Source: Owenia fusiformis
Lineage: Eukaryota > Annelida > Polychaeta > Sabellida > Oweniidae
Length of the DNA stretch: 64,000 nt
Reading direction: 5' to 3'
NCBI GenBank assembly: GCA_903813345.2
Contig: CAIIXF020000002.1
Coordinates: forward strand, 22,148,455 to 22,212,454
Shown: piece after piece, positions 8,137-37,419 of the stretch
Position numbering within the stretch: position 1 is the first letter of the stretch
How the letters are laid out: each line of letters opens with the position of its first letter
The notes under the pieces: generated by a model
Told to the model about the DNA's origin: nothing
Database searches by the model: none
Seen by the model: only the letters and a program-made list of their open reading frames with translations
Translations under genes and position numbers: made by a program

Positions 8137-10793
8137 TCAGGGATTATTCATGGGAACTTGGGCATTGTCCATGGGAACTTGGGCATTGTCCATGGGAACT
8201 TGGGGATTGTTCATGGGAACCTGGGGATTGTTCTTTGGGACTTTGGCATTATTCATAGAGACTCGATGATTATTCATGGGGACTTGGGCACTATTCAAAG
8301 GGATTTGGGCATTATTCATGGGGACTTGGACATTGTTCATGGGGGCTTGGGCATTATTCAAAGGTACTTGGGCATTATTGTCAAGTTTTGGGGCATTATT
8401 CATGGGGACTTGGGCATTATTCCCTGGGACTGGGGCATTAATCATGGGAACTTGGCCATTAATATCAAATGCTTGGGCATTATTCATGGGGACTTGGGCA
8501 TTATTCAAAGGTACTGGGGCATTATTGTCAAGTTTTGGGGCATTATTCATGGGGACTTGGGCATTATTCCCTGGGACTGGGGCATTAATCATGGGAACTT
8601 GGCCATTATTTATGGGGATTTGGGCATTGTTGTCAACTGAATGGGCATTATTCCCTGGGACTGGGGCATTAATCATGGGAACTTGGCCATTAATATCAAA
8701 TGCTTGGGCATTATTCATGGGGACTTGGGCATTATCCAAAGGTACTGGGGCATTATTGTCAAGTTTTGGGGCATTATTCATGGGGACTTGGGCATTATTC
8801 CCTGGGACTGGGGCATTAATCATGGGAACTTGGCCATTATTTATGGGGATTTGGGCATTGTTGTCAACTGAATGGGCATTATTCCCTGGGACTGGGGCAT
8901 TAATCATGGGAACTTGGCCATTATTTATGGGGATTTGGGCATTGTTGTCAACTGAATGGGCATTATTCACTGGGACTTGGACATTATTCATTGGGACTTG
9001 GACATTTTTCAAAGGGACTTGGGCATTATTTAAAGGTCGTTGGGCAACATTATTCAGTGCCTGGGCTTTATTCAAAGGGACTTGAGCATTATTTAAAGGT
9101 CCTTGGGCAACATTATTCAGTGCCTGAGCATTATTCAAAGGGGCTTGGGCATTATTGTCAAATGCTTTGGCATTGTTGGTCAGATCTATATTGTCTTGCA
9201 CTTTGTCCAGATCTATGTTATCCTGCACTTTCTTCAGATCTCTATTGTCCTGCACTTTATTCAACTCTATATTGTCAGGCACCTTGTCCAGATCTCTATT
9301 GTCCTGCACTTTATTCAACTCTATATTGTCTGGCACCTTGTTCAGATCTCTATTGTCCTGCACTTTATTCAACTCTATATTTTCTGACACCTTATTCAGA
9401 TCTCTATTGTCCTGCACTTTATTCAACTCTATATTGTCTGGCACCTTGTTCAGATCTCTATTGTCCTGCACTTTATTCAACTCTATATTGTCTGGCACCT
9501 TGTTCAGATCTCTATTGTCCTGCACTTTATTCAACTCTATATTGTCTGGCACTTTGTTCAGATCTTTATTGTTGTTCAGATCTATATTATTCAACTCTAT
9601 ATTGTCAGGCACCTTGTCCAGATCTCTATTGTCCTGCACTTTATTCAACTCTATATTGTCTGGCACCTTGTTCAGATCTCTATTGTCCTGCACTTTATTC
9701 AACTCTATATTTACTGGCACCTTATTCAGATCTCTATTGTTCTGTACATTATTCCGATCTCTATTTTTCTGTACATTATTCAGATCTGTATTGTCTGGCA
9801 CTTTGTTCAAATTATTGTTTTGACCTTTGCTCAGCTCAATATTGTTCTGTACTTTGTTGAGACCTCCTTCAACATGATGAATATTTTCATCAGATATACG
9901 TGGATTATTAATTTCTGGAATGGCATTTTTTTGTATGAGGTTGTTTGGAATGACTTTGTTTGGAATAAGTTTGTTTGAAATATGGTTGTTTTGAACATGA
10001 CTATCAGATAATAATGGATTCAGATTCACTGATAAATCCTTATGCTCCATTTTGCTATTGTCATGCTCCTCTTGAGCCACAATGGCTGGTTGTCTTTTCA
10101 CTTCAGGATTCATTTCATTCACTCCCTTAATAGAGTTAACATTATTTTCTGCATGCTTCATGTTCTGACTATTATGAGTTAATACATGATCTTCATCTTT
10201 TACCTCTTTATTGAATTGCAAGGCAGCATTTTGGTTATCATAATCAACAACTTTGTTGACGCTTTCAACTTGGTCATTATCCCCAGCATGATTATTGTCA
10301 TCACCTATATTATTGTCCTTAGTTTTTTTGTTATCGTTAGTGTCTTTCTCTACATTGTTACCATCAACATCCATATCTTTTATATCATTAACCTCATCAT
10401 GATTGATATTGTTGTCAGTGTTATCAACTGGGTTTTTATCATCATTTCCATCCTTTTCATCATCATCTAAATATTCCTTCTTACCATCAACAATTTCAAC
10501 ATCTTTAATATTATCAACTCCCTTGTTCATCTTATCTCCCAGTTCTAAGTTAACATACTGGTTCATTTTGATTTCTTCGTCTGTTGGAGCCTTGTTTAAC
10601 CTATCATAAGCCTCAACATTATCAATGCCTTGGTCAATTTTTTCATTTAGCTTCGATGCTGTCATTTTTATACATTGACCATTGACGAGCGCCAAGTTTT
10701 TGTTGCACGTGCAGTTGTAGACTGCTGGCTCCACCTGTTGGCAAGATGAGTTGTTGGGACAATTGAAGTTGTTCAGCGTGCAGTAATCCAGAT
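8137..10793 (-). CDS. Terminal exon: EGF end, acidic Asn/Asp region, repeat tail
   Basis: One 2,657-bp exon encodes the last EGF (about 38 residues) followed by about 850 residues of low complexity. An acidic Asp/Asn/Lys-rich part (about 10250-10560) comes first. A part with about a dozen copies of an 18-residue unit ([18 protein letters not shown] type) follows, and then a long stretch of 7-residue NNAQVPM-like units. There are no cysteines in the repeats and very many possible N-glycosylation sites. The reading frame is open for the whole length while the unit lengths (54 and 21 bp) are multiples of three, so the frame has been kept through repeat expansion. The function of the tail is unknown; a flexible, mineral- or glycan-contacting spacer is only a guess. 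Open frames on the plus strand here are repeat artefacts. Confidence 0.85.
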
Positions 10794-13700
10794 CTACAAA
10801 GATAATATTCAAAATATGGATATTCTATCATGGTTTATTTTTATATCATTTGTTTATTTGAACTATAGCCATATTACTTGACCAGGTATGTAAATATTGA
10901 CTGAAATCCTAATTAGGGATATTTCATATCGACCTGCTCCAAATAGATGTAACTGAACATTTACTGGTTTCCTCATAGTCCTTTCCTTTTAAAACTTGAT
11001 GTACAAGTCAAAGCACTAAAAATTTATGTTTCTGGCTATGTAACAATTTATTTATTTTCTCCCTAATAGATGTTGTGTTATTACTTACCCAGTATAAATA
11101 GGCCTGTCCCTGGAGAGTGTCCTTGAGGGGCCTGTTTCCAGTTTTGTGGGGGAGAGACGCTCTTCTTGAACACTCCTTCTGTAGTAAACGCTGCAATGAT
11201 AATGAGATTTAATTAAAGTAGTAATCCTTTAAATTTGCATTGAAGAGTATTAAGCTCAACTTATTGAGGTTCCAAACTACCACGCTTTAAAAGGGTACAT
11301 TGAAAGTTGAAATTCCTCACCTAAGCAAATTTCCATCTCCAAGCATGCTTTCTTGAGACTCTCATTAGAGCCACTCAGGTCTGGTGCAACCATGAAGTCC
11401 CCACCAGGACTCTGGACACCCTGAAAATAAACAATTTTTATGTTACAATAACTATGATTCCAAATAGAAATCAGTGTGGAGGATAATTTCTCAACTGAGT
11501 GCTCAAATGCTGGGGGATCACTGCAAATCATAGGAGTGAAAATAGATAGGAGGAATACCAGAAAATGGTGCAGTTGGGAATTTCTTGAAGATAAAAGTTT
11601 GGATTGAACAGGCATGACATGAAGAAAATATTTGAATATAAAAGCTGAATTAAGCTGAATGAAACAATTGTGACTACTATGTATCCCATGGCCATAATTA
11701 ATAAATAAATAAATTCTACACAAATCAAAATATCCATTTACTCTTACCTCAAAGAAAACAAACTCTGCATTTTGTTTAAATCTTCCAAAGTTGATTGGAC
11801 CAAAGAATTCAGCCATATTGTCAACATGGATGTCAGCCATGGTCATCTCGTCATGTCTGGGCAGACATGTTTTCCCATCCCCAACGTATTTGTCGTTACA
11901 TTTACATGTGTACTCTCCTGGCCCTGTAATATGTATATTTGATTACATTTACATGTGTACTCTCCTGGCCCTGTAATATGTATATTTGATTACATTTACA
12001 TGTGTACAAATGTACTATCCGGCACTGTAATATGCATAGATGATTTTTACACTGCATTAACATTACTGTCCTTGCGCTGTAATTTGTCAAATGGTTTAAT
12101 AAGGAAATTATTATTACAGAACCCCCATTTATATGTGACATTCTTTTTCATTGTTAAATGTGAGTATCATTGAGGCATCAGACAATATAAGATTTATCAA
12201 AGTATCTATTCAAGCTTTTTCGCTGAAAATCACAAGGGAAAATACCTTAATAAAAAGAACACAGCCCCATAGCCAGCTTTTGCCAAGGGGGATTCACTAT
12301 TTTTAAAATTGATCTAAAAATGGCCAAAATCACTTAAAAAATGTTTGGAATGGTAAAAGGTTCGCTCGAACCCATAGAACTCCCCCCCCCCCTGGCTATG
12401 GGCCTGAAGCTTCAATAGCCACAACAAAAGATGAAATACTTACGCTGTTGAGAACATGTAGCATGTTTTGAGCATTCGTGTAGATTCTTGGTGCAGATAT
12501 CAATATCTGTAAATACAATAAAACAAATATTCATGAAGCATTCAGTTGACCATGCATGGTCTTAATAAAATTGAGGTCCAATGTCAGTAACAGAATCAGC
12601 ATAGGATACATTTATTTTCCTCAAATCTATGGAAATACGATAAGTATAAGATATTTTCTATATTTTTGGCATTTAAAAATGATATGAGGATAAATGTATG
12701 AAATAATTCCTCATCTATAAAATAATCTTGCAAATGAATGAAAGTACAAAATTGGAACAATATCCAACAAGAAAACTAATGAAAAGAAAACCTTTCTAGA
12801 CTTTCTTGAAAGTGCATGATATAAACTACCATTCATTTGGAGATGTGTTGGTGTCTCATAACCACTTACCAGCAATAAAGAGTCCATCATCTGGTGTCTC
12901 ATACATGCCTTTCATCCAGCTAGTTTTTGGTGACAGCTTGTTCTTCAGATAACCTCTGCTATTGAAAGCTAAACATGTGTCACTTCTATCACAGTGTGTC
13001 TTCAAACCCTGAAATATTAATTAACATTGGAAATACTGAATATACATTTCCAATATATATGGTCAGTAGGCACAGGTTAAGAAAATTGTTTATCTTGTAG
13101 TTATTTCATACCATTATAAAAAAAAATTAGTACCATGGGTACTGGGCTCCATGGTGACAGAAAAAAACCCAAAAAGCAGATGTAATTTTTGCTGATTTTT
13201 TGTAACAAAATTATTTCAAGCCACTTGCCACTATTTTGGACTGACTGAGAGACAGATGGACAAATCGATGTTAAGTAAAATGGCCAATTATTTGTAACAA
13301 AATTATTTCATACAACTACTCTTTACAGTGACATGGATTTTTACAATGTAGGACACTTGAAATTCTTTGTAAAGCTAGGAAATGGGTCAAAAGTGAATTT
13401 CGCGTGTCAAAAATGGCGGCCATTTTGAAAATAGACGAGCTTTTGAACCAGGAGTCATAGGGGAGTTTTCTGTATTGATGTTGAACAGAAATAACTTAAA
13501 ACAGGAATCCTATCGACAGAGGTTTTAAAACGTGCCACTATTGTTGACGGACGGACGGACGGACAGACAGATGGACAAGTGAGTGATTGCAAAAGCTCAC
13601 CATGTGAGCTAATAACAAGACAAACACACAGTAATAAATGTTGCACTTTGAACAACAAAATGGCCACCATGTAATTAACCGATCATGCCTGAAACCTAAT

Positions 13701-16700
13701 CAATAGCACTAGCCCACTCTTACATCTGCAATTTTTTTCAGTTGAATAATTGGTTTTCCTGAAATTTTAAAGATGGGATTTATGCGGTATCTGCCCACCC
13801 AGGTGCATGCTCAGAAGCCTAAGCAAAAACAATATAGCACTAATAATGATAATATATCACTGCACTATATTATTACATCATATCAGACTGTATTAACATA
13901 CCTAGTGAAGCATTTGTATGGAAGTGAATGGGAAAGTTAGCGGGCAATATTTAGCAGTTATGTCTCCATCATTGAATATATGCCTGAGTTTTGTCATCAA
14001 TATAGCCCGAGCTTGCGAGTTTGGCAGCTATACTGAAATACATAGCCGACCTTCAGCTCCATTGACTTCCATACAAAATGCTTCGTTAGGTATGCAATAC
14101 CCACCAATATATCCTTTTGATATTAGCTTCTTTAATAACCATGACAATATCAAGAAGTCATGTTCCATTTCGACTAATTTCTACTCGCATACAGATGTGT
14201 GATGTCATTGATACAAAGTAACCATGGGAATAAAGGTATGTAATACATCAGTTATATCACTATGACGTGAAATAATGCCTTCGTTCTTCCCCCAATATAG
14301 AGCCTCCAAAGGTTGGCCTATACTACAAGAAATCAGGCATATTTCACATAATAGTGACATAACCTCAATATTACATTCAATCAGAAGATATCATATTTTT
14401 TCTTGAAACATGAAATTTTGTAATAAATCATCTGATTTCAGTCTGATTTTACAGGTGGAAAGTAATGATATTTACTTTAAGATTTCCTCTTAATTTTGGC
14501 AAGTAAATAAAATCCCCATCTGGAGAGTCCACTCCTTGTAGATAGATGTAGGACCTGTCTTCCTTTGTAGGGACCTTTGCTCCTTTAGACTTAGCCATGT
14601 CTACAATTCTGCAAATTTAAATCATAATGAGCATTTTTATACGAATATATAGATCACCCCTTGTATATCAAATAAAAGATGTCCAAAATGTATATCTAGA
14701 TGAAAATTGAAAAGTTATTTACTGGGAGGGACTGAATATGAGTTTTCACAGTCAGTACAATTTTTTCGCCAATCAGTGTGACGTTTGTTTAAAAATGCCC
14801 CCACTTTGCCATGATAAAATATTTAACAGTGTGACATAATAAATTGATAAATTTGACTTACAGTTGTTTCTCTAGATATTGTCTGTGAGCGAATCTTGCA
14901 TTCTCTCTAAAGTATTTGTCCTTATTGTATCTTCTCTCTCTCTCCTCCTTTTCTTGTTTCAACCTGGATTATCAAGAGCACTTTGAGAAGAAGAATCAAG
15001 GCATTAATATGCAAAATGTTACCACCTGCCAATTGTTACAGATGTCAACCGCCATTTGTTACGGACGCCAAACACAGTCCACAAAAAAGTTGGAGATCAT
15101 TACAATATGTCACTTCTGGTGGTGACATAAAAATTAAAATAATATATAATTCAATGTTAATATGCCAAATATCCCAAAATACTACCAAACTGCCGACTTT
15201 TTCGACTTAAATGCTGGCTCGATTTTTCAATTTCTTTCCTACATCCGGCATACTGATAATTTTTTTTTATTTATTTATTAAAATCATATAAACATAATAG
15301 TGATAATGACACCCTAGTGGGTGTTTGTCTTATCACAAGCTAAAATATTTGAAAAATGGCATATTGTTAGTTACATTTATCATTGATGTTACAAAGTGTC
15401 TCAAACTATAAATTATGTAAGCCAAACTGGGAAACAAATAAATATGATGTACTGTAAAAAAGATATAATAGACTTCCAACAATAACATGTTTTAAAGTTC
15501 AAGACAGGATTTTGAGATTTTTTAATATTGAAGCTGAATTTTATTTTTGTGAATGTATTACTACAATGTCAGTGTGCGTGTGAATGTAATGAGCAGAATA
15601 TCTCATACTTTTCAAAATAGATCTCCGACTGTGTGACTTCTCCCGTCTTTTCCTCGCGCTCTCTCTGAAGTCTATACGCCTTATACCAGCCAACAAATTT
15701 GGTTATACCTGAAATACAACATTAAATACTAGCAATTTGCAATAACACCTGTATACCTGAACACCTCTCTAATCTGAACACTTTCAATATGAACTTTCTG
15801 TTCCCATTTTTCAAATTTGCCATAGAATTTCATGTTAAATAACCTTGAAATGTGAACACCTGGCACTTTTGGCATGTCTAAGTGGTGTTCGGATTAAATG
15901 TCCTTTTTATCACACCATTATGTCTTTCGAAGGTGTTCACATTTCCAGGTTTCTTAATATGCCAGTTCTTGGAACTCACAAAATTAGGACAAAACGTTCA
16001 CATTGAGAGGTGTTTCGATAACAGAGTTGTTGAGATGAGAGACGAGTTCAGATATACAGGCTGTTCTGTACTTAATTCAAATTATCACTAGCCAATGTTG
16101 GCTCATGAGGCACTGGTCTTTACATGATCAGTTTATGTCATAAGAGTACATCACATTTTATATAATACATAAACATAATCAGATCACTAGTTTATGAGTT
16201 ATTATTATCAGACTGATGGTGGACTGGTGAACTTAAATGCGATTAATCATACCTTCTTTGAGGCCTGTCTTTGGATCAAGACCTAACAGTCTTCGTGACT
16301 CACTAATATCAGACCACGTCCTCAATATTTCCGTAGGAGGCATTGGAAGTTTTTTCTGAAAAATTAATCAAATGAGGAAAACAAGGCATTAACATGACAA
16401 AGTGTCACAGACTAAGAGTAACTGTTATTATAGACATTGCAGCGAAATGCAAGCCATGAAAAATGGCGTCTTTTAACAACAAAACATGGAGAAATCACAA
16501 GGCATTAACATGACAAAATGTCACCACCTAAAACAATTTGGTCAATTTAAAGCAAGTTGGAAAATACCTTTTGACCTTAAGAATGTTTTTGAAGATTTGA
16601 GCTTCTGGGATCTTGTAGATGATTTTGAAAAAAGAAATTGTTCAATCTGAAGCAAGTTAAAACTAGTTGCACACAAATCTTAAGTCAGATTTGAACTTCT

Positions 16701-19700
16701 TAGAACATGTAGATGATTTTGAAAAAAAAATTCGTCAATTTGAAGCAAGTTGAAAAAATACCTCTTTGACTTTTTTTGACATTGAGAAGGTCATTGAAGG
16801 TCAAATGTCAAATGTAAAGTCAGATTTGAACTTCTGAGAACATGTAGATGATTTTGAAAAAAAATTAAGTAAATTTGAAGCAAGTTGAAAAAAGACCTTT
16901 TTGACCTTGAAAAGGTCATTGAAGGTCAAATGTCAAATCTAAAGTCAGATTTGAACTTCTGAGAACATGTAGATGATTTTGAAAAAAAATTAGTCAATTT
17001 GAAGCAAGTTGAAAAAAGACCTTTTTGACCTTGAGAAGGTCATTGAAGGTCAAAGGTCAAATCTAAAGTCAGATTTGAATTTCTGAGAAAATGTAGATGA
17101 TTTTGAAAAAAAAAATTAGTCAATTTGAAGCAAGTTGAAAAAAGACCTTTTTGACCTTTTTTGACCTTGAGAAGGTCATTGAAGGTCAAATGTCAAATCT
17201 AAAGTCAAATCTAAAGTCAGATTTGAATTTCTGAGAAAATGTAGATGATTTTGAAAAAAAAATTTAGTCAATTTGAAGCAATTTGAAAACAGATCTTTTT
17301 GACCTTTTTTGACCTTGAGAAGGTCATTAAAGGTCAAATGTCAAATCGAAAAGGCAGATTTGAATTTCTGAGAACATGTAGATGATTCTGAAAAAAAAAT
17401 TAGTCAATTTGAAGCAAGTTGAAAAAAGACCTTTTTGACCTTTTTTGACCTTGAGAAGGTCATTGAAGGTCAAATGTCAAATCCAAAGTCAAATCTAAAG
17501 TCATATTTGAATTTCTGAGAACATGTAGATGATTTCGAAAAAAAAATTTAGTCAATTTGAAGCAAGTTGAAAACAGACCTTTTTGACCTTTTTTGACCTT
17601 GAGAAGGTCATTGAAGGTCAAATGTCAAATGTTAAGTCAGATTTGAATTTCTGAGAACACGTAGATGATTTTGAAAAAAAAATTTAGTCAATTTGAAGCA
17701 AGTTGAAAACATACCTTTTTGACCTTTTTTGACCTTGAGAAGGTCATTGAAGGTCAAATGTCAAATCTAAAGTCAGATTTGAAGGTCAAATGTCAAATCT
17801 AAAGTCAAATCTAAAGTCAGATTTGAATTTCTGAGAACATGTAGATGATTTTGAAAAAAAAATTAGTCAATGTGAAGCAAGTTGAAAAAAGACCTTTTTG
17901 ACCTTGAGAAGGTCATTGAAGGTCAAATGTCAAATCTAAAGTCAGATTTGAACTTCTGAGAACATGTAGATGATTTAGAAAAAAATTGAAGTCAGTCTAA
18001 ACAGTATTTGTTAAGTTATAGGAAGTTGTAAGAAATTGTTACAGACGCCGGACGCCAACCGCCGGACGCCAACCGCCGGACGCCGTCGCAAAAAAACGGA
18101 GACCATAACAATATGTCACCACTTTTGGTGGTGACATAATAAAATGATGGGACCCATTTTATATTTTTATCTATGATTCTAGTGTTGTAAAAATGCCTCT
18201 CAAGCCACACAAAGCAGTGTGACAATGAGTGAAATGTCAGTCTGAAGTTTCATCTATTTTTTATTAAATGTGAGACATAGAAATGCATATGACTTAAGGT
18301 GAAATTCTAACCATTATATTAATGCAAATTTCTGAAAAACATAACCTTGCGAACACAGGGCTCCAGACATCATCCACTATATTCATTCTTGGAGGCCTGT
18401 GTTCAGACATCCTCCTAAGCAGGTGTCCAGAATCCGTTCCTCCTTCTTCAGATTGCGAGTTCTTAATCGGGGAAATGCTAACTGCTTATCGCAGGGGGTA
18501 AAAATAATTTTGAAGCCCTGTGATCGGAAGATGATGTTCAGATGATGGAAAAAAATTTAAATACTAATTACCACTTTAGCAGGTATGAGTAGTTCTTCCT
18601 CTAAGTACTTAATAAGCTCAGGGACGCTGACTGGGTTCCCATTTCCCAAATTAAACACCTCTCCACACCTTGCTGGAGTGTAGTCAAGTGACGCAAGCAA
18701 CCCGTCTATGATGTCATCAACGTATGTGAAGTCTCGGGATAGTGGCCGGTCATCGCTGAATGTAAATTAACAAGTGCTTCAATGAGATTATAGTTCATAA
18801 CTTTTTCAACATTTTTATTTCATGTTATTTTTCATAAAACCGAATTACAATTCTGGATATATGCTGCTCTTAAGTGAAAAAGGGGTAACCCTGTCCGTCC
18901 GGACATAGAACAGCTTAGGTGTCACAAATACCAGGCATCACATAAATAGGGTGTGACACTATGAAAAGTTGTCACATTTACATTTACCTTAAGTGGAAGA
19001 GAGGCAGATCTTCCCTGTCCAGAATAGACTTAGCAAAGACCATCATGGCCATGTCAGGGCGTCCCCACATCCCATACACTGTGAAGAATCTGAAGCCCAC
19101 CCCTCGTAGATTCCACTTTGAGCAGTAATGGTAGCCTGAAATATACAAACAAATTAAGGGAGAAAAATAAAATATGTGTGAATACTTTGATCACATCCAC
19201 ATAAAAGCGATGAGTAGTATCAAGGTTTTGTTGTGAAATTCTGTTGATTTTTAATCCTCGCTGAGAAATTCATCTCTTCAGATCTTTTCCCATCTTTTGT
19301 CATTGCGGTTTATGAATTACATTCAAATTCAGACTGTTTTACTAAATCCGATTATGTAGTACTATGTATCTGTTCTACTATTTTTCAACATACCATTTTA
19401 GAACATACATGTGTTTTGAATGAATGAATTCTCATCAGCAATAACTGGTGAAAGGCCAATTTTGCAGTAACATACAATAAAACCAGTCTAATTAGAATGC
19501 CATTTGGTCTAGCCGTAAAGTGTATGGTTCAGCAGGTGTTCAGATTTTAAAATTTTTCAACATGTGAGTCAATGGGGATAACAAATTTGGTACCCAAAAT
19601 GTTCATCACATTGAGTTTATTGTTGATTAGAGAGGAGTTTACTCCACACAAGATAAATTTACTCTAGAGAGTGTCTTGAACAAAATGATACCCTCAACCT

Positions 19701-22700
19701 TTTTTCCCAGCCGAGTAACGAAATCGGAGCTAGGGACAGCATCAAGAGGTGTTTGGATTACTCTTAAGAGATGTTTGGATATACAGGTATCACTATCATT
19801 GTACTCAATGATGGACTAATTGGGTTAAATGCTTACCTAAGAGTTCATCTGTTTTCTTAGATGCTGCATACATATTCCCTGGCAGATCAGTCCTAGCATC
19901 AAGAGTGAATGGAATGGTACTTTTCTTGCCATAGACACTTGATGAGGAGGCGTATGATAACTTTATATGCTGCAATTGAAAAGAAAACAAGGCAATCACA
20001 TGCAAAATGTCACAACCTACCATTTGTTACATACAGGGTGTCCCGAAAGTATGGGGCCCCCCCTAGGCAGACATATACCAGTGTCGCCATAGTATGTGTC
20101 ATATATCATTTTAAAGCTTATCCAAAGTTACATTGATTTGCCAAGTATCATGGTTTAACTCCCACATTACCACTGGCACCAAATGTTGAACGTCAATCAC
20201 TAAAAAAATGAAGGCTCTTAATTTAAAAATACTTCAACACTTAAGGTGGTAATAATTCAATGAAGCTAGGGACAAAGCAATACCTTATTATTGTAAAATA
20301 AGTGCATTAGCATGGGCAGTATGCCCAAAATGGCTGGCAAAGATTCTAATTTTAATAGTATGGTCATTTTTCTGCCAGGAATAAGGTCATACACACCACT
20401 ACATTACAAAATCTGAGACATTATGATGTAACATATCTTGTAATGTTTAAAGGCAATGCATAAGCCTAATGATATGGTGAAAATCCAATGACAAAGTACT
20501 ACCAAAGTATAATACATAAGTCATCTATCCCAACATTGCTATAGACTGGTGGTATACTTACAGTGTAATCCTTCAGAACTTCAAACAGTGCAGTTTGACA
20601 CTGTACATTCCAGTGGACGTATGTTGTAGGGTGATCCAATGAGTAACGTACCCCTGCCTGGGCAGCCAAATGAATCACGTGTGTGAAGTTCATTTTCTCA
20701 AAAAGCTCTTCAAGGAAGTCTTCGTTACATATTGAATCAAATGCAACCTCAACACCCATCTTGGAGAGCTCATAGGCCCGATCCTAGTAAATACAAGATC
20801 ACACAACCAATTCACATCTACATGTTCAAATTGTTCATGTATGTGGTCTAAAAGAATGGCACATTAGAATATAAAGACTATTAGATACAAGACTTATTCA
20901 CTAGGAAAGAATAGAGAGAGAATATGTTAGATAGTTAGCATACCTACCTATATAAGATGGTAGGGAAATGATTACAGTCCCAGTAAAAGGTAGTCCATTG
21001 AAAGTAGTTCTTAAAAAGATAAGAACCAGCACCATGTTATATATAGCACCTAGTTGTGTTAAAAAGCATATCATATTTTAAAACACCATAGTTATGAAAG
21101 CCCAGGGTTTTCACCAGGAAATGTTTAGACCCCAGATTTTTTGCAGTATCACGACTACATCTCCCCCATGTGAGATTTCCTATTAGCATACTTTTCAAAA
21201 TACAACTACATGTATTAAGATTATCTTCCTATTTTAATAACAATATACATTTCTAAAAGGTTTCTGACTTCCTATTCCTTGTTTGTCTCCAGTTTTATGT
21301 ATTACCACAAATAATGTGACAAAAATGTAAAATTAGACTCGGTAAAAACATTTTAGACGGGAACGTTTTTAGACTCTGGAGCAAGAGGGTCTAAAGACAT
21401 TAAACCCCAGAGAATCTTCGGAGTCTAAAACCTAGTGAGAACCCTCAGGATAATTTATAAGTCATTATTCATTTTGAGCACATACTAGTAAATTATTTAT
21501 GAATGTACTCTAGTATCCCCTCCAAGTTGTTTTCCCCTTATATAAAATATCATAAAACATTTAATGATTGTAAAGATTCTCAGTGAGGTATAACAAATGC
21601 ATGCCCATAGCTAGGGGATGTTCTGGGGGATTGAGCGAACCCATCCCCTTGGCCCAAAAATTCATGCAGTTTTTCACCATTCTGAGCACTTTTCAATTGA
21701 TTTTTGGCCAAAGTTGTGAAACGTTAATCTCCCCTGCAATTTTTTGAAAAATGAATCCCCCTTGGAAAAAGCTGGCCATAGGCCTGAAATGTCTCATTAG
21801 AAACAGACATGCAAATGATTTTATTGAGTGTACCTTGGGTTATGAATAAACAAATCCTTGCTTCTATTTTAATGTATCATAACATGTATATGAGACACAT
21901 TTTAACTTCAAGCTTTGTGGAGCAATAACTCCAAGGAAATCAACATTTTAATTTTTTTAGCATTTTTCACACTTTTAAATCAATGAATGTACCAACATAA
22001 GGATTTGATTTTTGGAATGGAATGGGGTCCTTGATCCATATTTTACCCAAGTTTATCTTTCAACAAGTATTTTTGAGCAAAATATGTTTAATTACATGTG
22101 CCCTTGGGGGTAAATCTGACAATTTTGGCCCAGAATCACTGTGAAAAGTGCTCAAAATGGTGACAAGGCACAGGACGTGAACGAGATCACACCATCAAAT
22201 AGCCAGACACTATGAACCAGGAAAACTGTTCTCCTATTATGTTTACAAATTTCAAGAACAAGAAACAAGATTTTTCAAAAAACCTTCAAAATGGCCACCA
22301 GAAAACAAGATGGCCGCCCAAAAGTTAATCAGCTCTAGTACTTGATATCCTCTATCATTTGTGTAAATTTGAAGGAAATCCGATAAGCGGATTTTCTGAA
22401 ATGGCGATGACAAGATTTTTCGAAAAATCTTCAAAATGGCTGCCAGAAAACAAGATGGCCGCCCAAAAGTTAATCAGCTCTAGTACTTGATATCTTCTAT
22501 CATTTGTGTAAATTTGAAGGAAATCCAATGAGCGGTTTTTCTGAAATGGCGATGACAAGATTTTTCGAAAAACCTTCAAAATGGCCGCCAGAAAACAAGA
22601 TGGCCACCCAAAAGTTGATCAGCTCTAGTACTTCATATGCTCTATCATCTCTGCGAATTTGGAGAAAATCTGATGAGCAGTTTTCCTTAAACGGCGATGA

Positions 22701-23657
22701 CACAAAGCGGGACGATCACGACCACGATCATGACCACGATCACGACCACGATCACGACCAGTATGACGACTATATCCCACCGATGGTGTGATAAAAAAAC
22801 TGCATCATTTTGTAAGGATTTTTGGCCAGGAGAGGTTCACTTGAAAATCCCAGGCTACAAGCTGGCTACAGGCCTGATGAGGTCAGAATAATCTTTTCCT
22901 GACAGCACAGAAAAATAATGAGAGAACGTAAAGATAAGACTTACCATTTTAAGTTTTACATCATAGTAGTCATTATAGTTATCAATGCCATAAACAAAAT
23001 GATTGGGGTTTTCTTTTTTCAATCCACGGGCCATGTGGAAGCCTATGAATCCAGCAGCACCAGTGACAAGTACTCGCTTTGGGATTTCAGGTGTACGAAT
23101 CGCTGGCGTAGAACCTAGAAATACAATTCAATGTATTGCAAGTGATACTAATTCTACCTCCTTCAAGAGCAATGACTTTTGAGTCCCTGATTTCAATACT
23201 TTTACGTAACATTTTTTATTGATCAATCGGGGATAAATAGAAATTATACCATGTCCTACTCAAAGCGAATCCCAATCTAGTTTAGAGCAGTCAATCAGTT
23301 TATAATCTAGGCACTTTATAATATTTGCTACATAAACAGCATTTTGAAAAGTTATGGATAACTATTGATCTAAACAGTATCATGTTTATCACAAATGGAC
23401 TGATTTAATCCATCCATAATGCGGTTTGTTTAAAAATTAACGGACAAGAAAAGTGAGACACAGCTGCTCATTCGTCGAGCTGATGACAATATCATACTTT
23501 TTTAAAAATGATTTAAAAATTACAACTCACCATTGTTGTTGTCATAGAACTTAGAGAAGATGATAATGAGGCTGCCAATGACAAGGATCGTCAAGACAAC
23601 ATGTAGCACATTCTCCCAGTGAACCTTTATAGACATCTTCGAAGAAGGTACTTGCAT
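8137..23657 (-). CDS. Membrane-anchored UDP-GlcA 4-epimerase fused to PAN-like/EGF modules and an Asn-rich tail (16 exons)
   Basis: Exons (descending): 23657-23531, 23114-22945, 20783-20562, 19969-19837, 19135-18988, 18755-18572, 16355-16253, 15708-15609, 14963-14862, 14608-14476, 13008-12870, 12506-12444, 11923-11748, 11420-11321, 11190-11089, 10793-8137. All junctions are GT-AG and the phases join without a gap, giving 1,552 codons. Residues 17-35 are hydrophobic after a short basic stretch, so a type II membrane protein is likely. The SDR/epimerase domain (about 56-385) shows GAAGFIG (61-67), [16 protein letters not shown]207-A-A-S-K211 and a [11 protein letters not shown] block, as in CapI/GAE epimerases that convert UDP-glucuronate to UDP-galacturonate. 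Then follow a charged helix (about 370-430), two PAN-like plus EGF units (450-705) and an Asn/Asp-rich tail. The exon with ATG is preceded by an acceptor at 23669 and stays open upstream, so an earlier start is possible. The fusion is inference from splicing; no transcript is available here. Confidence 0.8.
8150..9180 (-). repeat. Coding tandem repeat B (7-residue NNxQVPM units)
   Basis: Units of 21 bp encode N-N-A-Q-V-P-M and variants. Higher-order blocks are repeated: a 28-residue block with [18 protein letters not shown] occurs three times, and longer blocks containing [12 protein letters not shown] also recur. This indicates recent unequal exchange. Confidence 0.9.
9190..9840 (-). repeat. 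Coding tandem repeat A (54-bp, 18-residue units)
   Basis: About twelve 54-bp units encode alternating LNKVPDNIE and LNKVQDNRD half units. Some units are shortened, for example near 9565-9600 where LNN replaces part of a unit. Confidence 0.9.
11089..14608 (-). CDS. Two PAN-like + EGF units (exons 10-15) of the fusion gene
   Basis: Unit 1: [16 protein letters not shown], then C-x5[12 protein letters not shown], then GLFIADIDIC opening a calcium-binding-type EGF ([28 protein letters not shown]). Unit 2: [15 protein letters not shown], then C-x6[13 protein letters not shown], then GLFILDLDYC opening a second EGF ([23 protein letters not shown]). The shared order SPxGDF ... C...CLAF ... GLFI-D resembles the PAN/apple style of short disulfide module, but the family match was judged by eye only. 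In both units the intron before the EGF falls in phase 1 right before the Asp, so the two units are a tandem duplication at DNA level. The modules suggest a luminal or extracellular location. Confidence 0.72.
11870..12020. repeat. 47-bp tandem duplication of an exon edge and splice acceptor
   Basis: The edge of exon 13 (acceptor plus the first 25 coding bases, words CTCTCCTGGCCCTGTAATATG on the plus strand) is repeated 47 bp upstream at about 11945-11990, and a third diverged copy follows near 12000-12020. The duplicate acceptor at 11971 is intact. Using it would add 47 nt and shift the frame. Confidence 0.85.
12263..12412. repeat. MITE, ends GCCCATAGCCAG, copy 1
   Basis: Left end GCCCCATAGCCAG and right end CTGGCTATGGGCC are inverted. 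The interior has AATGGCCAAAAT and a C run. Other copies are at 21600, 61187 and 63606. Confidence 0.75.
13385..13625. repeat. Dispersed element with GACG microsatellite
   Basis: Has AATGGCGGCCATTTTGAAAA, then a (GACG)n run at about 13545-13566 merging into GACAGACAGATGGACAAG, then AAAGCTCACCATGTGAGCT, a small hairpin. The layout (unique head, short tetranucleotide array, hairpin tail) is that of a Helitron-like or SINE-like invertebrate repeat; the class is uncertain. Confidence 0.5.
14996..15134 (+). repeat. GTCACCACC family element, copy 2
   Basis: AAGGCATTAATATGCAAAAT, TTACCACCTGCC, TTGTTACRGAC twice, and the end TGGTGGTGACATAA. Lies in the intron between exons 8 and 9 of the epimerase fusion gene. 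Confidence 0.75.
15249..15600 (-). repeat. Possible 5'-truncated LINE 3' end
   Basis: Starts with a T run followed by ATTTATTTATT, the same arrangement as the 3' end of the full LINE at 30258 (T run, then AATTTATTTATT), and then a small hairpin CACCCTAGTGGGTG. No reverse-transcriptase reading frame is seen, so the identity is tentative. Confidence 0.35.
15746..16070. repeat. ACAGTMAAACCT family element(s), intronic
   Basis: CACCTGTATACCTGAACACC, ACCTCTCTAATCTGAACA, a GTGTTCGGATTAAA arm, then a second inverted set ending TTCAGATATACAGGCTGT. Probably two nested or adjacent copies of the family described at 1499. Confidence 0.6.
16253..23114 (-). CDS. Epimerase domain exons (2-7) of the fusion gene
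   Basis: Six exons encode a full extended-SDR domain. Exon 2 has the dinucleotide-binding glycine motif GAAGFIG and an IDNYNDYY block that in this family binds the nucleotide ribose. Exon 3 has [11 protein letters not shown]. Exon 4 has the serine-rich ASSSSVYG and the catalytic YAASK. Exon 5 has [16 protein letters not shown]. Exon 6 has the [11 protein letters not shown] and [11 protein letters not shown] blocks. Exon 7 closes with a typical C-terminal PKTGLKEG. Every hallmark residue of an active enzyme is present, so this is not a decayed copy. A decarboxylase (UXS) or dTDP-glucose dehydratase is less likely given the RPDMA block. Introns hold several repeat arrays (16.4-18.1, 22.2-22.8 kb). 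Confidence 0.88.
16380..18140 (+). repeat. GTCACCACC family element expanded by an ~11-unit tandem array
   Basis: The family head (ACAAGGCATTAACATGACAA) appears at 16384 and 16498 and the family tail (ATGTCACCACTTTTGGTGGTGACATAA) at 18112-18138. Between them are about eleven units of about 120-175 bp, each with GTCAATTTGAAGCAAGTTGA, TTTTTGACCTTGAGAAGGTC, ATTGAAGGTCAAATGTCAAA and TGAGAACATGTAGATGATTT. At least eight units hold AGGTCATTGAAGGTCA, two AGGTCA half-sites in direct repeat with a 4-bp gap. GGACGCC repeats precede the tail. The array lies in intron 6 of the epimerase fusion gene. Confidence 0.9.
19480..19795. repeat. Diverged ACAGTMAAACCT family element
   Basis: AAACCAGTCTAATTAGAATG at the left and GTTTGGATATACAGGTATCA at the right, with a GGTGTTCAGATT arm inside. 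It lies in intron 4 and ends just before exon 4 of the fusion gene. Confidence 0.45.
19988..20165. repeat. GTCACCACC fragment interrupted by a mariner-type MITE
   Basis: A family head (AAGGCAATCACATGCAAAAT, GTCACAACCTACC) stops at 20033, where CAGGGTGTCCCGAAAGTATG begins. The latter is the left part of the element complete at 49107-49267, here without a recognisable right end. The order shows the mariner-type copy inserted into the older element at a TA. Confidence 0.7.
21600..21790. repeat. MITE, ends GCCCATAGCYAG, copy 2
   Basis: GCCCATAGCTAGGGGATG at the left and AAGCTGGCCATAGGCCTG at the right; interior GCACTTTTCAATTGATTTTT is shared with 61187 and 63606. Intronic in the fusion gene. Confidence 0.75.
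22245..22700. repeat. 145-bp tandem repeat, three units
   Basis: Units are 145 bp, measured between the words TGGCCGCCCA at 22311 and 22456 and its variant at 22601. Each has CCTTCAAAATGGCCRCCAGA, CAGCTCTAGTACTT and TGAAATGGCGATGACAAGAT. Small open frames on both strands are products of the repeat. Lies in intron 2 of the fusion gene. Confidence 0.9.
22705..22770. repeat. Short (GATCACGACCAC)n array
   Basis: Four to five copies of a 12-bp unit directly follow the 145-bp array. It would encode Asp-His pairs in one frame, but there is no exon context. Confidence 0.85.
23531..23657 (-). CDS. First coding exon of the fusion gene: signal anchor
   Basis: Encodes [12 protein letters not shown] followed by a hydrophobic segment ([19 protein letters not shown]) and YDNNN. 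Positive residues lie before the segment, so the N terminus should be cytoplasmic and the epimerase luminal. Plant UDP-GlcA 4-epimerases have the same topology (known), which supports Golgi placement (inferred). Confidence 0.8.
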
Positions 23658-23696: not shown

Positions 23697-24045
23697 GTTA
23701 CAGTAAAACCTGTATAAGTGTACACCTCTCTCTAGAGAACACTCTCTCTAGTGAACACCTCTCTAGTGAACACCTCCCACTAGTAAATACATCTCTCCAG
23801 CAAACACATCTCTCTAGTGAACACATCTCTCTAGAGAACAACTCACTTGAGCTAACACCTCTCTCTAGAGAACACTCTCTCTAGTGAACACTCTCTCTAG
23901 TGAACACATCTCTCTAGTGAACACTCTCTCTAGTGAACACATCTCTCTAGTGAACACCTCTCTCTAGTAAACACATTTCTCGAGTGAACACCCCTTTCTA
24001 GGAAATACCTCTCTGATGAATATCCACCTCCAGTAAAACAGTGTT
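23697..24045. repeat. Large TCTCTCTAGTGAACACC tandem array
   Basis: Begins ACAGTAAAACCTGTATAAGT, the family end described at 1499, then about sixteen imperfect 17-20 bp units (ACACCTCTCTCTAGTGAAC). It lies directly 5' of the first coding exon of the fusion gene, within a presumed 5' UTR intron. Confidence 0.85.
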
Positions 24046-30494: not shown

Positions 30495-33400
30495 TCAGAT
30501 ATTGGCAGAGATAAAATCAGCCACTTTGGACAAGAGTTGCGAATTTGTTTCTAAAGATAGATCAGGATCTCCATAATAGAATAAAAAAAGTAAATCAGCT
30601 TGATTTTTATGTTTATTTAAGACTCCTGGTGCAATCAGTTCAATGTCATTTTTTAATGTTTGAAAATTCAAATCATTATTTGGACACTTCAGAAGAAAGT
30701 GCTTTGGCGTACAGATAGCTCCACATGAGCAATTTGGGCCATCAATAAAAGTAAAGTTATGGGCGTATAGTTGAGCCCTAAAAAGTAAATCAGCTCTAAG
30801 TCTGTTTATGATTATTTCTTGTTTTCTTGTCAAATTAAGAAAGGTAGATGGCAGAGTAAGTTTTTTGGGAGCAAAATAAGTTTTTTGATATTTTTTGAAA
30901 GTCTGGAGTGTTTTCTTTTCTCTGATATATGATGGCAGCATTGACCATGAACTGATTGCACCTAGGACTGCTGACTCCAAGAATCTATTGCTACAGCGGA
31001 TCGGTAGCTTAAAGTCAAATTTGTTGCGATTAGTTCTAATGCTTTTATTTTTGTACTTCTCAAAGATCTCATTTAGATATACAGGAGTTGTTCCATTGAC
31101 AACCTTGTACATGAAATTATTAATTTGCATCTTCCTTCTGTCCTCTAATGTATGCCATTGTAATAAAGTGAGCACTTTAGTGGTGTTACTACCATGGTAA
31201 CAGCCTGAACACAAGATGGCTGCTTGGTAGTAGAGCTTGTTCAACCGTTCAAGTAAATATTTGGAAGATTTGTTGTATAATACAACACCATAATCAAAAT
31301 ATGGACGAATAAATGAGGTAAAGATTGTCTCCAAATGTTTGGCTGTCAGTTTGCCTTGGAGTTTTTTTAAAGGATTTAGCATTTTTTTTACCTTTGTACA
31401 TATCTCATCAATATGATTTATATTTGAGAGGCATTCATCAAAACAGTAACCAAGATGTTTGTGGGTTGCAATTCTTTTGATTTCAGTGTTATTGAGAAAT
31501 GATGTGGTCACGTTTTCAGTTGGCATTCTTGGAGTATGAAAAATAACTTCGCAGCTCTTCTCAGGTTTAAACTGGAGCTTCCATAATTTGGACCAATTTT
31601 GAATCGCTTCCAGGTTACTTGCAACAGATTGATCTATCTCATTTGGATTTTTGGGGTCAAAAGAGAACTGCAGTGAAGTATCATCTGCGTATATATAGCA
31701 CTCTGTGTCAATTTTATCTGGGAGATCATTTATGTACAATAAAAAAAATAGGGGTCCCAAAATTGATCCTTGTGGAACACCGCAATTGATAAAATTGGCC
31801 TCCGACATTGAAGACGAAGCACCAGCTAAATTTACATACATTTTTCTGTCAGAGAGATAGGATTTTATGACATTTAGTAACTGTCCCCTTATACCATAAG
31901 ACTTGAGTTTCAATATGAGTAAGTGATGAGGGACTTTGTCAAATGCTGATGCAATATCAAGAAATATTCCTTTTGATGCCTTTCCTTCTTCAAAATTATT
32001 CTGAAGGAAGTGTTCTATGGTCAAAAGTTGGGCTTGTGTGCTATGTCCAGGAAGAAAACCTGCCTGGTGTTTATAAAGTAAATTATTAGAGGTCAAATGC
32101 GTTCGGATTCGATCAGCTATAACCCTTTCAAACAATTTGGATATAGTATTTAATAAGGTAATCGGGCGGTAATTGTTAATGTCAGACTTGTCACCTTTTT
32201 TGAAAATTGGACAAACTATGCCTACCTTCCATGGTTCTGGAAATACATTTCTTGAACATAGTCTGTTAAATAGGGTAGATAGAGGTCTTGATATTGTGTG
32301 TGCTGTGAGGTTAAGCATTTTGTTGGTAATCATATCAGGTCCACAGGCTTTTGAAGTGTCAAGTGACAAAATTAATTTCATCAATTCATCTGGATTTGTC
32401 GCAACTGAAATGAGTAGAGAGTTGGTTCTGTCAGGAAAATTAGGTAATTGGTCAAAATTGATATTATCCATATGATTTTTGGATGCAAACAGCTTTAGGA
32501 AGGCATTTGCCTTCTCAAGGTTATCAGTTATTGGCGGTTGATTTTGATTAAACAGTGGTGGAATTTGGGAATCAGCACTTTTACCAAGAAACAGCCTTAT
32601 TAGTTTCCAATAATTCTTATCATTTTTACTAAAGTTATTAATGGAATCGCGGGTTTTTTTATCATGATATTCTTTAAGATTTGTAATAAGAGTCGTTACT
32701 TTAATTGATTGATTGTCATAAAGATGTCTATTGAGGGTGGTAGGTGATGATTTGAGTTTCCTAAAAAGTAATTTCTTTTTGTTAATTTCTTGCCTAAGAT
32801 TTTCATTAAACCAGGGCTGATCCTTAGATTTGATAGTGATTTTCTTATTTGGAATGTGTTTTGAGTAAATATTCATAAGTGAATGGCCAAAATGTGAGGT
32901 CACTTTATTCATATCAATGTCTGAATCAATAATTTTAAGCCAGTCGGTGTTTCGTATTGCATTGTTTAAATTTTCAAGATTACACAAATCATATTTCCAA
33001 ATAGTTTTCCTAACAGGCTGTTCCTTTGTGATGCTTAGTTTTAAATATGATACAATGGTGCAGTGATCTGCTCTTCCAATTGGGTCAGTTATACTCCAGG
33101 ATGTAAAAATATCAGGTGAATCAGTAAGAATATGATCAATGCATGATTGAGAGTTTTTTGAGAACCTAGTAGGTTTGTTAATTAGTTGGGTGAAGTCAAA
33201 ATCATCAATAAGATCAGATAATAATTTCCCAGCCAGATTATCATCATTCTGGTACCAGGTTGAGTTTTTGGCATTTAAATCACCTGAGATAATGACATGG
33301 TCAAAATTAGTAGGGTTGTTTTTTATTATTTGGAATTGTTGTTCAAGTTTCGAAAAATATTGTCGAGTTTCCTGTGCTGTTTGACTTGGTGACCTGTAAC

Positions 33401-34241
33401 ACACCCCTATCAGGATGTGCTTGTGATTCAATATTAATTCAGTAAAGATACAGTCAAGGTCAGGTACATAGAAATTTTGATCAAGTTCCTTAGTTGGTAT
33501 ATTGGAATTAATATAAAGAAGTAAACCCCTACCAAGTTTAGAAAAGATAGGTCTTTTATAGTTATTTATGTCAAGTTGGCCTAGTGCAACCATTTCTTGT
33601 ACTTGACCTGCCTCACATATACTAATGACTGATGGAGAATCAAAATTTGCTCTGATTTTTAGATCCTCAAATCTAGCCCCATTATCAGCATTTATGCTGT
33701 TTATATTTGAGAATAGGCATGTCAAATTGCCATTTTCAGGCCCAGGATTGGGGTGTATGTCACCACATGAGTGCAGGAGAATAGATACGATATTTGGAAT
33801 ATATGCAAAATTACATATACCTGGCACAAATAAAGTTGAGATAAGAATTTTAGATAATAATACAATTGCATGGGCACTATATTTACATTTAACCAGGTTA
33901 GTCACTGTAATAGTGATCAAGATGGGGGTTGTCATATAAACGGTGCAAATAATTATGCTATAAAGAGTCAGAATTGACAACTTGATGAAAGAAATGACAG
34001 CATCAGGAGCTACACTGTTTACATAGTAGATGATCAGAGAAATTATGGAAATTAGTAACAAGGGCACTACAAGTTCTCCAAATAGGTCAAAATGGGTATT
34101 TGAGTGGTTTTTTCGACTGGTATTGATTGAGCAGTGACCCTTATTAAAATTGCCAATAGCTACCCTCCATTGCTGGATGCTAATACCTATCCTATCCCAA
34201 GTCTCCACTCCAACCACCCTACCCCCCATAAACAAGTGCAA
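30495..34241 (-). CDS. LINE ORF2: endonuclease and reverse transcriptase with hydrophobic leader
   Basis: 1,248 residues. Residues 50-160 contain three or four hydrophobic segments (about 57-73, 84-112, 124-140), then C-G-D-I-H-P-N-P-G-P at 159-168, a 2A-like ending. The APE-type endonuclease follows (SNINSI near 178, SGDLNAKN 319-326, IDHILT 368-373, GRADHCTIV 389-397). The reverse transcriptase (about 665-930) has FKKGDKSDINNYRPI, FLDIASAFDKV, the conserved GVPQGSILGPL, and catalytic YADD at 851-854. A C-terminal Cys/His knuckle (CSCGAICTPKHFLLKC) comes after residue 1150. The RT motifs place it with the jockey superfamily (CR1/L2/jockey). The start could be a later Met; the long leader is in frame and open. 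Confidence 0.92.
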   Translation of the reverse strand: MHLFMGGRVVGVETWDRIGISIQQWRVAIGNFNKGHCSINTSRKNHSNTHFDLFGELVVPLLLISIISLIIYYVNSVAPDAVISFIKLSILTLYSIIICTVYMTTPILITITVTNLVKCKYSAHAIVLLSKILISTLFVPGICNFAYIPNIVSILLHSCGDIHPNPGPENGNLTCLFSNINSINADNGARFEDLKIRANFDSPSVISICEAGQVQEMVALGQLDINNYKRPIFSKLGRGLLLYINSNIPTKELDQNFYVPDLDCIFTELILNHKHILIGVCYRSPSQTAQETRQYFSKLEQQFQIIKNNPTNFDHVIISGDLNAKNSTWYQNDDNLAGKLLSDLIDDFDFTQLINKPTRFSKNSQSCIDHILTDSPDIFTSWSITDPIGRADHCTIVSYLKLSITKEQPVRKTIWKYDLCNLENLNNAIRNTDWLKIIDSDIDMNKVTSHFGHSLMNIYSKHIPNKKITIKSKDQPWFNENLRQEINKKKLLFRKLKSSPTTLNRHLYDNQSIKVTTLITNLKEYHDKKTRDSINNFSKNDKNYWKLIRLFLGKSADSQIPPLFNQNQPPITDNLEKANAFLKLFASKNHMDNINFDQLPNFPDRTNSLLISVATNPDELMKLILSLDTSKACGPDMITNKMLNLTAHTISRPLSTLFNRLCSRNVFPEPWKVGIVCPIFKKGDKSDINNYRPITLLNTISKLFERVIADRIRTHLTSNNLLYKHQAGFLPGHSTQAQLLTIEHFLQNNFEEGKASKGIFLDIASAFDKVPHHLLILKLKSYGIRGQLLNVIKSYLSDRKMYVNLAGASSSMSEANFINCGVPQGSILGPLFFLLYINDLPDKIDTECYIYADDTSLQFSFDPKNPNEIDQSVASNLEAIQNWSKLWKLQFKPEKSCEVIFHTPRMPTENVTTSFLNNTEIKRIATHKHLGYCFDECLSNINHIDEICTKVKKMLNPLKKLQGKLTAKHLETIFTSFIRPYFDYGVVLYNKSSKYLLERLNKLYYQAAILCSGCYHGSNTTKVLTLLQWHTLEDRRKMQINNFMYKVVNGTTPVYLNEIFEKYKNKSIRTNRNKFDFKLPIRCSNRFLESAVLGAISSWSMLPSYIREKKTLQTFKKYQKTYFAPKKLTLPSTFLNLTRKQEIIINRLRADLLFRAQLYAHNFTFIDGPNCSCGAICTPKHFLLKCPNNDLNFQTLKNDIELIAPGVLNKHKNQADLLFLFYYGDPDLSLETNSQLLSKVADFISANI

Positions 34242-34627
34242 AAAGTATATACTGTCTTCATGTCAGTGATAGTTTGATTTGGATTTATATGTGTAATGAG
34301 CAAAAACCATGTGAGCAGATTGCTGAAGCATAGATGATATCAACAAAAACTTAGAATCAGATTAAGTCTTTAAGACATATGTACATTACAATGTAATACT
34401 GTCATTGCATACAATACATGTAAGTTCTAACAAACAGTAATAATCGAAGAAACAAGTCATATATTGTGTGCAGGTGAGCACGTCTCTCTCAAGCTTAAGT
34501 TCTGGATGAGCAATAAAAGATTATAAACCAGGCTTGCTCACTGGGCCATTATACTTATTGCCAGCAGTCTAGAGAAGTAATGCTACATGTATGAACAACT
34601 AACCCAAGTTTAAATATAATATGCATA

Positions 34628-35793: not shown

Positions 35794-36729
35794 TTATTCA
35801 TCGAGATCAATTATCTCGTCCACAGAATCAAGTATATTGAATTGTTTAATGTGGCCAGACTGTTTGATTTTACCGAAAACTTTACCATTCGACATCCAGC
35901 TACTGTCAATTCTTTGGTTTTTTCTGAGGTCGTACAGCAGCTTGCTGTTGAGAGGACTTGCGTCTTCGTATACTCGTATATCAGTCCCTTTTAGTTCTTT
36001 TTTGTGACGCATTACGAGGTCCTTGTCTGCCCGGAACTTGAAGCGGACTATCATCTTCCTTGGTCCAGTTTGCCCAGGTCTCGACCTACCAGGGACTCTA
36101 TGTGCCACCTCAATCATAGAACGCTGAATGGGAACATTGTTCTCATTCAGGTTGGAAACGACAAGATCAGCACATTGTGCGGCTGTTTCCTCAGCCCCTT
36201 GGGCTTCAGGCAATCCAAAGATGTTTACATTATTTTTACGTGAGTATTGATTGTTATGATTTGTCTCAAGGGTTATTTCGTTAAGTCTCACCTCTAGTTT
36301 CTTAGTCTTAGCATCCAACAGGATAACTTTCTCCTTGAGATTTTTATTTTCGACTTCAATGGAGCTCATTCGATCAGAGACTTTCTGCCAGCGAGAGTCA
36401 AATTTCGTAAACATTGAAACAATCCATTTTTTTAGACAGTCATTGGACATGATGACGTCATCATCATCGACATTATCCCCAAGACCCTCGCCGTTTTGAG
36501 CCAGTTCGTTAGAGGGTTCGGTAACCAGGAATTCGGACGAAATGTGTTCCGTTTCATCTAGACGCTGTCTGTTGACGGGGGCCTCTTCCTGAGGTCCACT
36601 ACGGTCCAATATTGTGCGTTTATTGCCAGCCTTGACAGATTCATTCCTAGATCCGCCATTTTGATTTTCGGAGACTGGGGTGCTTGTGATGAAGCTCGTG
36701 AGCTTCGACTGTTCTTTGACTTTTGACAT
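35794..36729 (-). CDS. LINE ORF1: L1-ORF1p-like RNA-binding protein
   Basis: 311 residues from ATG at 36729. The first 90 residues are polar. A likely coiled coil follows (about 105-160, with ENKNLKEKVILLDAKTKKLE). Next is an RRM-like segment containing NNVNIFGLPEAQGAEETA, and a C-terminal domain with AHRVPGRSRPGQTGPRKMIV and KIYEDASP-like RVYEDASPLNSKLLYDLR. This order matches the transposase_22/L1 ORF1p family: trimeric RNA-binding chaperones that package the LINE RNA. No frameshift is seen. Confidence 0.85.
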   Translation of the reverse strand: MSKVKEQSKLTSFITSTPVSENQNGGSRNESVKAGNKRTILDRSGPQEEAPVNRQRLDETEHISSEFLVTEPSNELAQNGEGLGDNVDDDDVIMSNDCLKKWIVSMFTKFDSRWQKVSDRMSSIEVENKNLKEKVILLDAKTKKLEVRLNEITLETNHNNQYSRKNNVNIFGLPEAQGAEETAAQCADLVVSNLNENNVPIQRSMIEVAHRVPGRSRPGQTGPRKMIVRFKFRADKDLVMRHKKELKGTDIRVYEDASPLNSKLLYDLRKNQRIDSSWMSNGKVFGKIKQSGHIKQFNILDSVDEIIDLDE

Positions 36730-37419
36730 AATCCTGAGTCAGTAGTAGAATCCGTATATATTCATACACATTCACATTAGAATACAAGCGTCCTAGGTGT
36801 GTCTATAGACTTACAATATAGCAATCTTTTCACACGATTTTGCAGGGTTCTTATTCCATTACACTGCCATCTATCAGGGATAAATTAGAAACTAGATATA
36901 AATCGGAAATGTTAAGTAATTTTCTGAATTTATTGATTGTAAAAAAGTTAGGTGAATTAATTCTAAAAGATTAAATCATATTGGTTTTATCTAGAGAAGT
37001 TTATGCTAAACACTTTTAATTTAACAATTTATAATTTTTATGAATATGACATTTATTTACCAAAATAATATGTGATTAATATGAGTATAGTTTTAACAGA
37101 ATAAGCCTAGCCTATCTTAATAGGGCTATTCACGATGCTATTCATATATTTCACACCTTCAAGGTAAATTGGCTGGCTATTGGATTAACTTTCCAATATA
37201 AATTTGTTTATTAAAAATTATTTCAAATAAATGCCCAGTTGGCAAAACATTCGAGAAAAGGGATGAAATTGCGAATAGTACATATGTAAGGTAATACGTG
37301 ATTAATGTCGTTCAAGTACAAATGATAAATAAAAATGAGGTCACATATTGGTCAACGTTTTTGCCCACGTTCGTGATCATACTAGTGCGTGAGTATGAAG
37401 GCCATGTGTCAACTATACA

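Follow-up and report, generated by a model that had tools for sequence, protein, structure and literature searches.

In a 64,000-nucleotide stretch of the Owenia fusiformis genome (contig CAIIXF020000002.1, positions 22,148,455 to 22,212,454; hereafter the window), we find a single gene that likely encodes a type II, probably Golgi-luminal epimerase converting UDP-glucuronate (UDP-GlcA) into UDP-galacturonate (UDP-GalA), fused to two units of a glycosyltransferase-associated module plus an EGF domain and to a long Asn-rich tail. The gene resides on a chromosome-scale contig, in an assembly of 12 such contigs (498 Mb; contig C12 is 36.7 Mb and contig C13 is 0.66 Mb). It occupies window positions 23657..8137 on the minus strand, and its 16 exons, which we rebuilt independently from the window sequence, are as follows.

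Exon 1, 23531..23657, minus strand: start Met and putative signal anchor (residues 1-43), with donor GTGAGT in phase 1.
Exon 2, 22945..23114, minus strand: Rossmann motif TGAAGFIG (residues 60-67).
Exon 3, 20562..20783, minus strand: SDR core.
Exon 4, 19837..19969, minus strand: the Ser182-184 carboxylate/catalytic segment, Tyr207, and Lys211.
Exon 5, 18988..19135, minus strand: Thr236 and Arg243.
Exon 6, 18572..18755, minus strand: SDR C-terminal lobe.
Exon 7, 16253..16355, minus strand: SDR C-terminal lobe.
Exon 8, 15609..15708, minus strand: SDR end (FVGWYKAYR) and beginning of the charged linker.
Exon 9, 14862..14963, minus strand: charged linker with RERR (residues 404-407), phase 2-2.
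Exon 10, 14476..14608, minus strand: linker and first half of module 1.
Exon 11, 12870..13008, minus strand: second half of module 1.
Exon 12, 12444..12506, minus strand: first part of EGF 1, phase 1-1.
Exon 13, 11748..11923, minus strand: second part of EGF 1 and beginning of module 2.
Exon 14, 11321..11420, minus strand: module 2.
Exon 15, 11089..11190, minus strand: module 2.
Exon 16, 8137..10793, minus strand: EGF 2 and the 843-residue Asn-rich tail, with the stop at 8137.

All 15 introns are of the GT-AG type, and exon phases are compatible throughout (intron phases in order: 1,0,0,1,2,0,1,2,2,0,1,1,0,1,1). The spliced product contains 1,552 residues in one frame, with the sole stop at the end, and its domains are arranged as signal anchor, SDR domain, charged linker, two consecutive module-EGF units, and the tail. 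The rebuilt exon ends agree with a preliminary description of this DNA, which had proposed sixteen exons on one strand in a single frame, and exons 8-11 fall at the same coordinates (15708..12870). Exon 9, with 102 nt and phase 2-2, may be skipped with the frame intact, and an acceptor-like cag at about 23670 suggests that a 5′ UTR exon may exist upstream of exon 1. A 47-nt perfect tandem duplication (window 11896-12007) spans the acceptor of exon 13 and results in two identical acceptor sites; our model takes the second one, and the frame is kept. Minisatellite arrays are found in or beside the introns of the gene, at 16674-17783, 22265-22702, and 23717-24014, with units of 136/148/284 nt, 145 nt, and 17/133 nt.

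The N-terminus of the fusion protein contains hydrophobic residues at positions ~17-36, preceded by Lys7 and Lys11 and followed by a sequon at N42. These features are compatible with the membrane anchor that had been placed ahead of the enzyme, and the putative anchor would be type II-like. The fusion is probably a type II protein with its enzyme domain in the Golgi lumen. Plant GAE has a type II anchor and a type II Golgi topology. Animal UXS1 is also a type II protein, with a luminal SDR domain that acts on UDP-GlcA, which makes it the closest animal analogue in topology.

The SDR domain covers residues 55-375 and matches the Pfam family PF01370 over residues 57-304 (E 4.5e-40). Its best relative in the PDB is 5u4q (E 1e-70), deposited under the name dTDP-glucose 4,6-dehydratase, and the next matches are the characterised UDP-GlcA 4-epimerases BcUGAepi (6zl6, 134 bits) and MoeE5 (6kv9, 91 bits). 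WbgU and GalE rank below these two, at 86 bits and lower, and UXS entries score about 50 bits. The NCBIfam equivalog cut-offs for galE, rmlB, and heptose epimerase were not reached. In BcUGAepi, the carboxylate of the substrate is contacted by Thr126, Ser127, Ser128, and Thr178, and Arg185 holds the carboxylate in the product; in decarboxylases, Glu replaces Ser128 (PMC7984243, PMC12338863). Alignment with BcUGAepi places Thr126/Ser127/Ser128 at Ser182/Ser183/Ser184 of the fusion, the catalytic pair Tyr149/Lys153 at Tyr207/Lys211, and Thr178/Arg185 at Thr236/Arg243. The fusion thus retains every mapped catalytic and carboxylate residue of UDP-GlcA 4-epimerase, among them the catalytic Ser/Thr (Ser182) and the Tyr-x-x-x-Lys motif (Tyr207 and Lys211), and the NAD-binding G-x-x-G-x-x-G motif is found as TGAAGFIG at residues 60-67. 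An identity as UDP-xylose synthase (UXS) is not supported, as the decarboxylase Glu is absent: in UXS, which is a decarboxylase, Glu stands in place of Ser128, whereas the fusion has Ser184. Of the 87 alignment columns in which at least 95% of the 51 bacterial relatives agree, 72 are kept in the fusion and 15 are changed. Based on the PDB relatives, the mapped residues, and these conserved positions, the SDR domain is most likely an active UDP-GlcA 4-epimerase. The complete domain of this type recognized in the preliminary description is confirmed in its fold, motifs, and specificity residues.

The branch of the SDR domain is long (1.67-1.95 changes per column, compared with a median end branch of 0.38), and, together with the 15 changed positions, this means that the domain could have moved to a different substrate or activity. 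The domain might use another nucleotide sugar, as a UDP-uronate 5-epimerase or a UDP-N-acetylhexosamine(uronate) epimerase would, or it might be a non-catalytic scaffold, and the clearly degraded SDR domain of a paralog on contig C7 (see below) points in the same direction. We consider this unlikely, as all residues described for catalysis and carboxylate binding in UDP-GlcA 4-epimerase are retained, and the PDB comparison gives lower scores to GalE, WbgU, and other specificities. As a putative UDP-GlcA 4-epimerase, the domain shares the extended-SDR type, the Gly-rich motif, the Ser-Tyr-Lys residues, the Thr/Ser carboxylate pocket, and the Arg with plant GAE, CapI/LpsL, BcUGAepi, and MoeE5. 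Unlike the plant and bacterial enzymes, it is found in an animal, and module-EGF repeats and a long tail are attached to it.

UDP-GlcA 4-epimerase has been described from plants and bacteria (PMC7984243). A family known mostly from these groups could have reached the assembly by recent bacterial gene transfer or by contamination, but we regard this as extremely unlikely: six introns lie inside the SDR coding part, the contig is of chromosome scale in a 12-chromosome assembly, identity to bacterial forms is about 44% at best among the at least 594 confirmed stretches listed, and a diverged paralog with introns exists. An old transfer is possible.

When exon 8 is read past its donor, a stop is reached, with an AATAAA at 15545, so an enzyme-only isoform is possible. 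The same signals might also indicate that two adjacent genes, an epimerase ending after exon 8 and a module/EGF/tail gene, were joined in error, and, apart from the paralog, no homologue is known for the linker (exon 9 and the beginning of exon 10). However, no convincing signal-peptide start with a usable donor was found upstream of exon 10, though EGF domains need the secretory route. The one hydrophobic start candidate, at 13670, was rejected, as it is located in repeat-like sequence and would cost the protein half of module 1. The paralog, whose features are given below, has the same junction with the same phases.

Paralog (loci L225-L227), C7:7086136-7104148, plus strand: 13 exons in the same domain order, without the tail.
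Degenerate Rossmann exons of the paralog, C7:7086136-7086314 and C7:7086841-7087032, plus strand: matching fusion exons 2 and 3.
Candidate anchor exon of the paralog, C7:7075536: with a phase-1 donor.

The paralog was found by searching the whole genome with each module, which gave a weak match at C7:7098706, and by then reading 40 kb around it. It is laid out as two exons for the Rossmann half, four for the other part of the SDR domain, the linker, module-EGF-module-EGF, a stop, and an AATAAA. The module/EGF region is 29% identical to that of the fusion over 293 residues (E 1e-38). The SDR part is weakly but significantly similar (E 6e-5 in a two-sequence comparison), and the exon candidates corresponding to fusion exons 2 and 3 reach scores of 43 and 51, compared with shuffled-reference maxima of 29 and 33. 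On the SDR half of the paralog, the family HMM gives 3.8 bits, below the best shuffle of 6.0; homology of this half is therefore based on the pairwise E value, the exon scores, and the intron phases. The phases agree with those of the fusion at eleven boundaries (2/3, 3/4, 6/7, 7/8, 8/9, 10/11, 11/12, 12/13, 13/14, 14/15, and 15/16; phases 0,0,0,1,2,0,1,1,0,1,1), and the 5/6 boundary is one base off. Fusion exons 4-5 and exons 9-10 each correspond to a single exon in the paralog, and a GC-AG intron follows its second listed exon. The Gly motif of the paralog reads NGASFLG, and Tyr-x-x-x-Lys and the tail are absent. Lacking both an intact Gly motif and Tyr-x-x-x-Lys, the paralog should be a pseudoenzyme. 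No third copy was found in a genome search with the paralog as query.

As the paralog repeats the whole domain order, including the enzyme-module junction, the case for one gene becomes much stronger, and two genes joined in error are very unlikely. No convincing separate start was found for the second half, and the junction and phases have been kept in the paralog after long divergence; we therefore consider the fusion a real single gene, as it had been proposed to be. Two forms may come from this gene, either through alternative polyadenylation, which would yield an enzyme-only isoform that terminates in intron 8 beside the full fusion, or through furin cleavage at RERR (residues 404-407), which would free a module-tail part. 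RERR is the only R-X-K/R-R motif in the fusion protein and is located in the linker that separates the enzyme from the modules. The stop and AATAAA in intron 8 and the position of the motif are consistent with such an outcome, but AATAAA is frequent in AT-rich introns and RXRR easily arises by chance in an Arg/Glu-rich linker, and we see the existence of both forms as possible, if somewhat improbable.

The two modules of the fusion, each of ~78 residues with one Cys pair, are 39% identical to each other. Both end at a phase-1 intron in the same position, followed by an EGF domain beginning with D-x-D-x-C. The shared intron and the identity between modules indicate that the module-EGF unit was duplicated inside the gene. 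The two EGF domains, recognized as such before, contain six cysteines each and match PF12947 in two stretches (E 2.4e-10). No Pfam family matched either module even at E=10. The modules had been called PAN-like, and PAN/Apple is also a small Cys-containing module; this identity did not hold, as no Pfam PAN match was found at E 10 and the module has only a single Cys pair. A profile of the two modules has a sole match in the whole PDB, the C-terminal domain of Mimivirus R655 (E 0.0072), and a four-module profile of the fusion and paralog, with R655 excluded, has 9crz residues 261-329 as its sole PDB match (E 9.4e-6). R655 is a putative collagen glycosyltransferase (PMC9546862). Its C-terminal domain shares with the modules the pattern D-S-x-G-G-D ... 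C-x-A-F-N-T-x-G ... G-(I/L)-(Y/F)-I, but sits after a glycosyltransferase domain, not an epimerase, and has neither the first Cys nor an EGF domain. As the R655 domain is the sole PDB match, the module is best called glycosyltransferase-associated. Relatives of the module were found neither in viral contigs (by scans and a degenerate DNA pattern) nor in phage records and PHROGs, and a search of the same genome with the R655 module, which had no positive control, gave no match.

The tail (843 residues; window 8137-10665, minus strand) is 22% Asn and is made up of an acidic stretch, 9/18-residue units, and 7-residue units of the NNAQVPM type. Its 251 non-repetitive codons are open in the frame of the gene. 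In the other five frames, 10-57 stops occur, and base shuffles of this part never stay open (0 of 2000). Differences among distinct 9-residue repeat units fall mostly on the third codon position (186, compared with 70 and 82). The sole open frame, the shuffles, and the third-position bias establish that the tail is coding and not a chance open frame, in line with the giant Asn-rich repeat tail of ~850 residues described earlier. No N-x-S/T sequon is found in the 843 residues, compared with a shuffled expectation of about 5 (P about 0.003, a rough value given the repeats). Ser and Thr are scarce, together accounting for 25 of the 843 residues. Asn-rich frames elsewhere in the genome were rejected as relatives of the tail, as their identity of 15-41% was taken as low-complexity similarity. 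The tail is presumably disordered.

The window also contains the following features.

41869-43557, plus strand: DUF229 sulfatase-like gene (PF02995, E 3.5e-40), which lies at a distance of about 18 kb to the fusion and may encode a glycan-modifying secretory protein; a preceding exon, at 41138, contains a possible N-terminal anchor.
30498-34262, minus strand: non-LTR retrotransposon; a single open frame of 1,255 residues contains both its endonuclease and its reverse transcriptase.
35794-36738, minus strand: open frame of 314 residues upstream of the retrotransposon frame, which by reading looks like its ORF1.

A UDP-glucose dehydrogenase domain is encoded on contig C2 of the same genome. In the pathway we propose, UDP-GlcA from this enzyme would enter the lumen, where the SDR domain, judging from its conserved residues, would oxidise C4, rotate the 4-keto sugar, and reduce it to UDP-GalA. 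The modules and EGF domains may position the enzyme among acceptors, transferases, or other enzymes of the secretory pathway, and the tail may act as a disordered spacer or an adhesive part. Cleavage might take place at RERR 404-407, and the C7 paralog would probably be a non-catalytic partner or scaffold.

Galacturonate is a plant-wall sugar (PMC6994554), and our literature search, which covered few subscription papers, returned nothing direct on an animal UDP-GlcA 4-epimerase or on annelid galacturonate. No GH28 (polygalacturonase family) gene was found in the same genome, which so far gives no hint of galacturonate turnover. Galacturonate and glucuronate are of equal mass, so the former could have passed for the latter in mass spectrometry.

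Tentatively, the fusion and its paralog could represent an animal-lineage family, comprising a catalytic member and a pseudoenzyme, that combines a UDP-GlcA 4-epimerase with R655-like modules and EGF domains and that might supply Golgi UDP-GalA for galacturonate-bearing glycans, such as those of secreted mucus or tube material. In the fusion, an enzyme is joined to a module whose only other occurrence in this analysis is in the glycosyltransferase of a giant virus. With the key residues and a putative secretory anchor present, and the fusion kept in a second copy, the question of whether an animal makes UDP-GalA and galacturonate-bearing glycans becomes directly testable.
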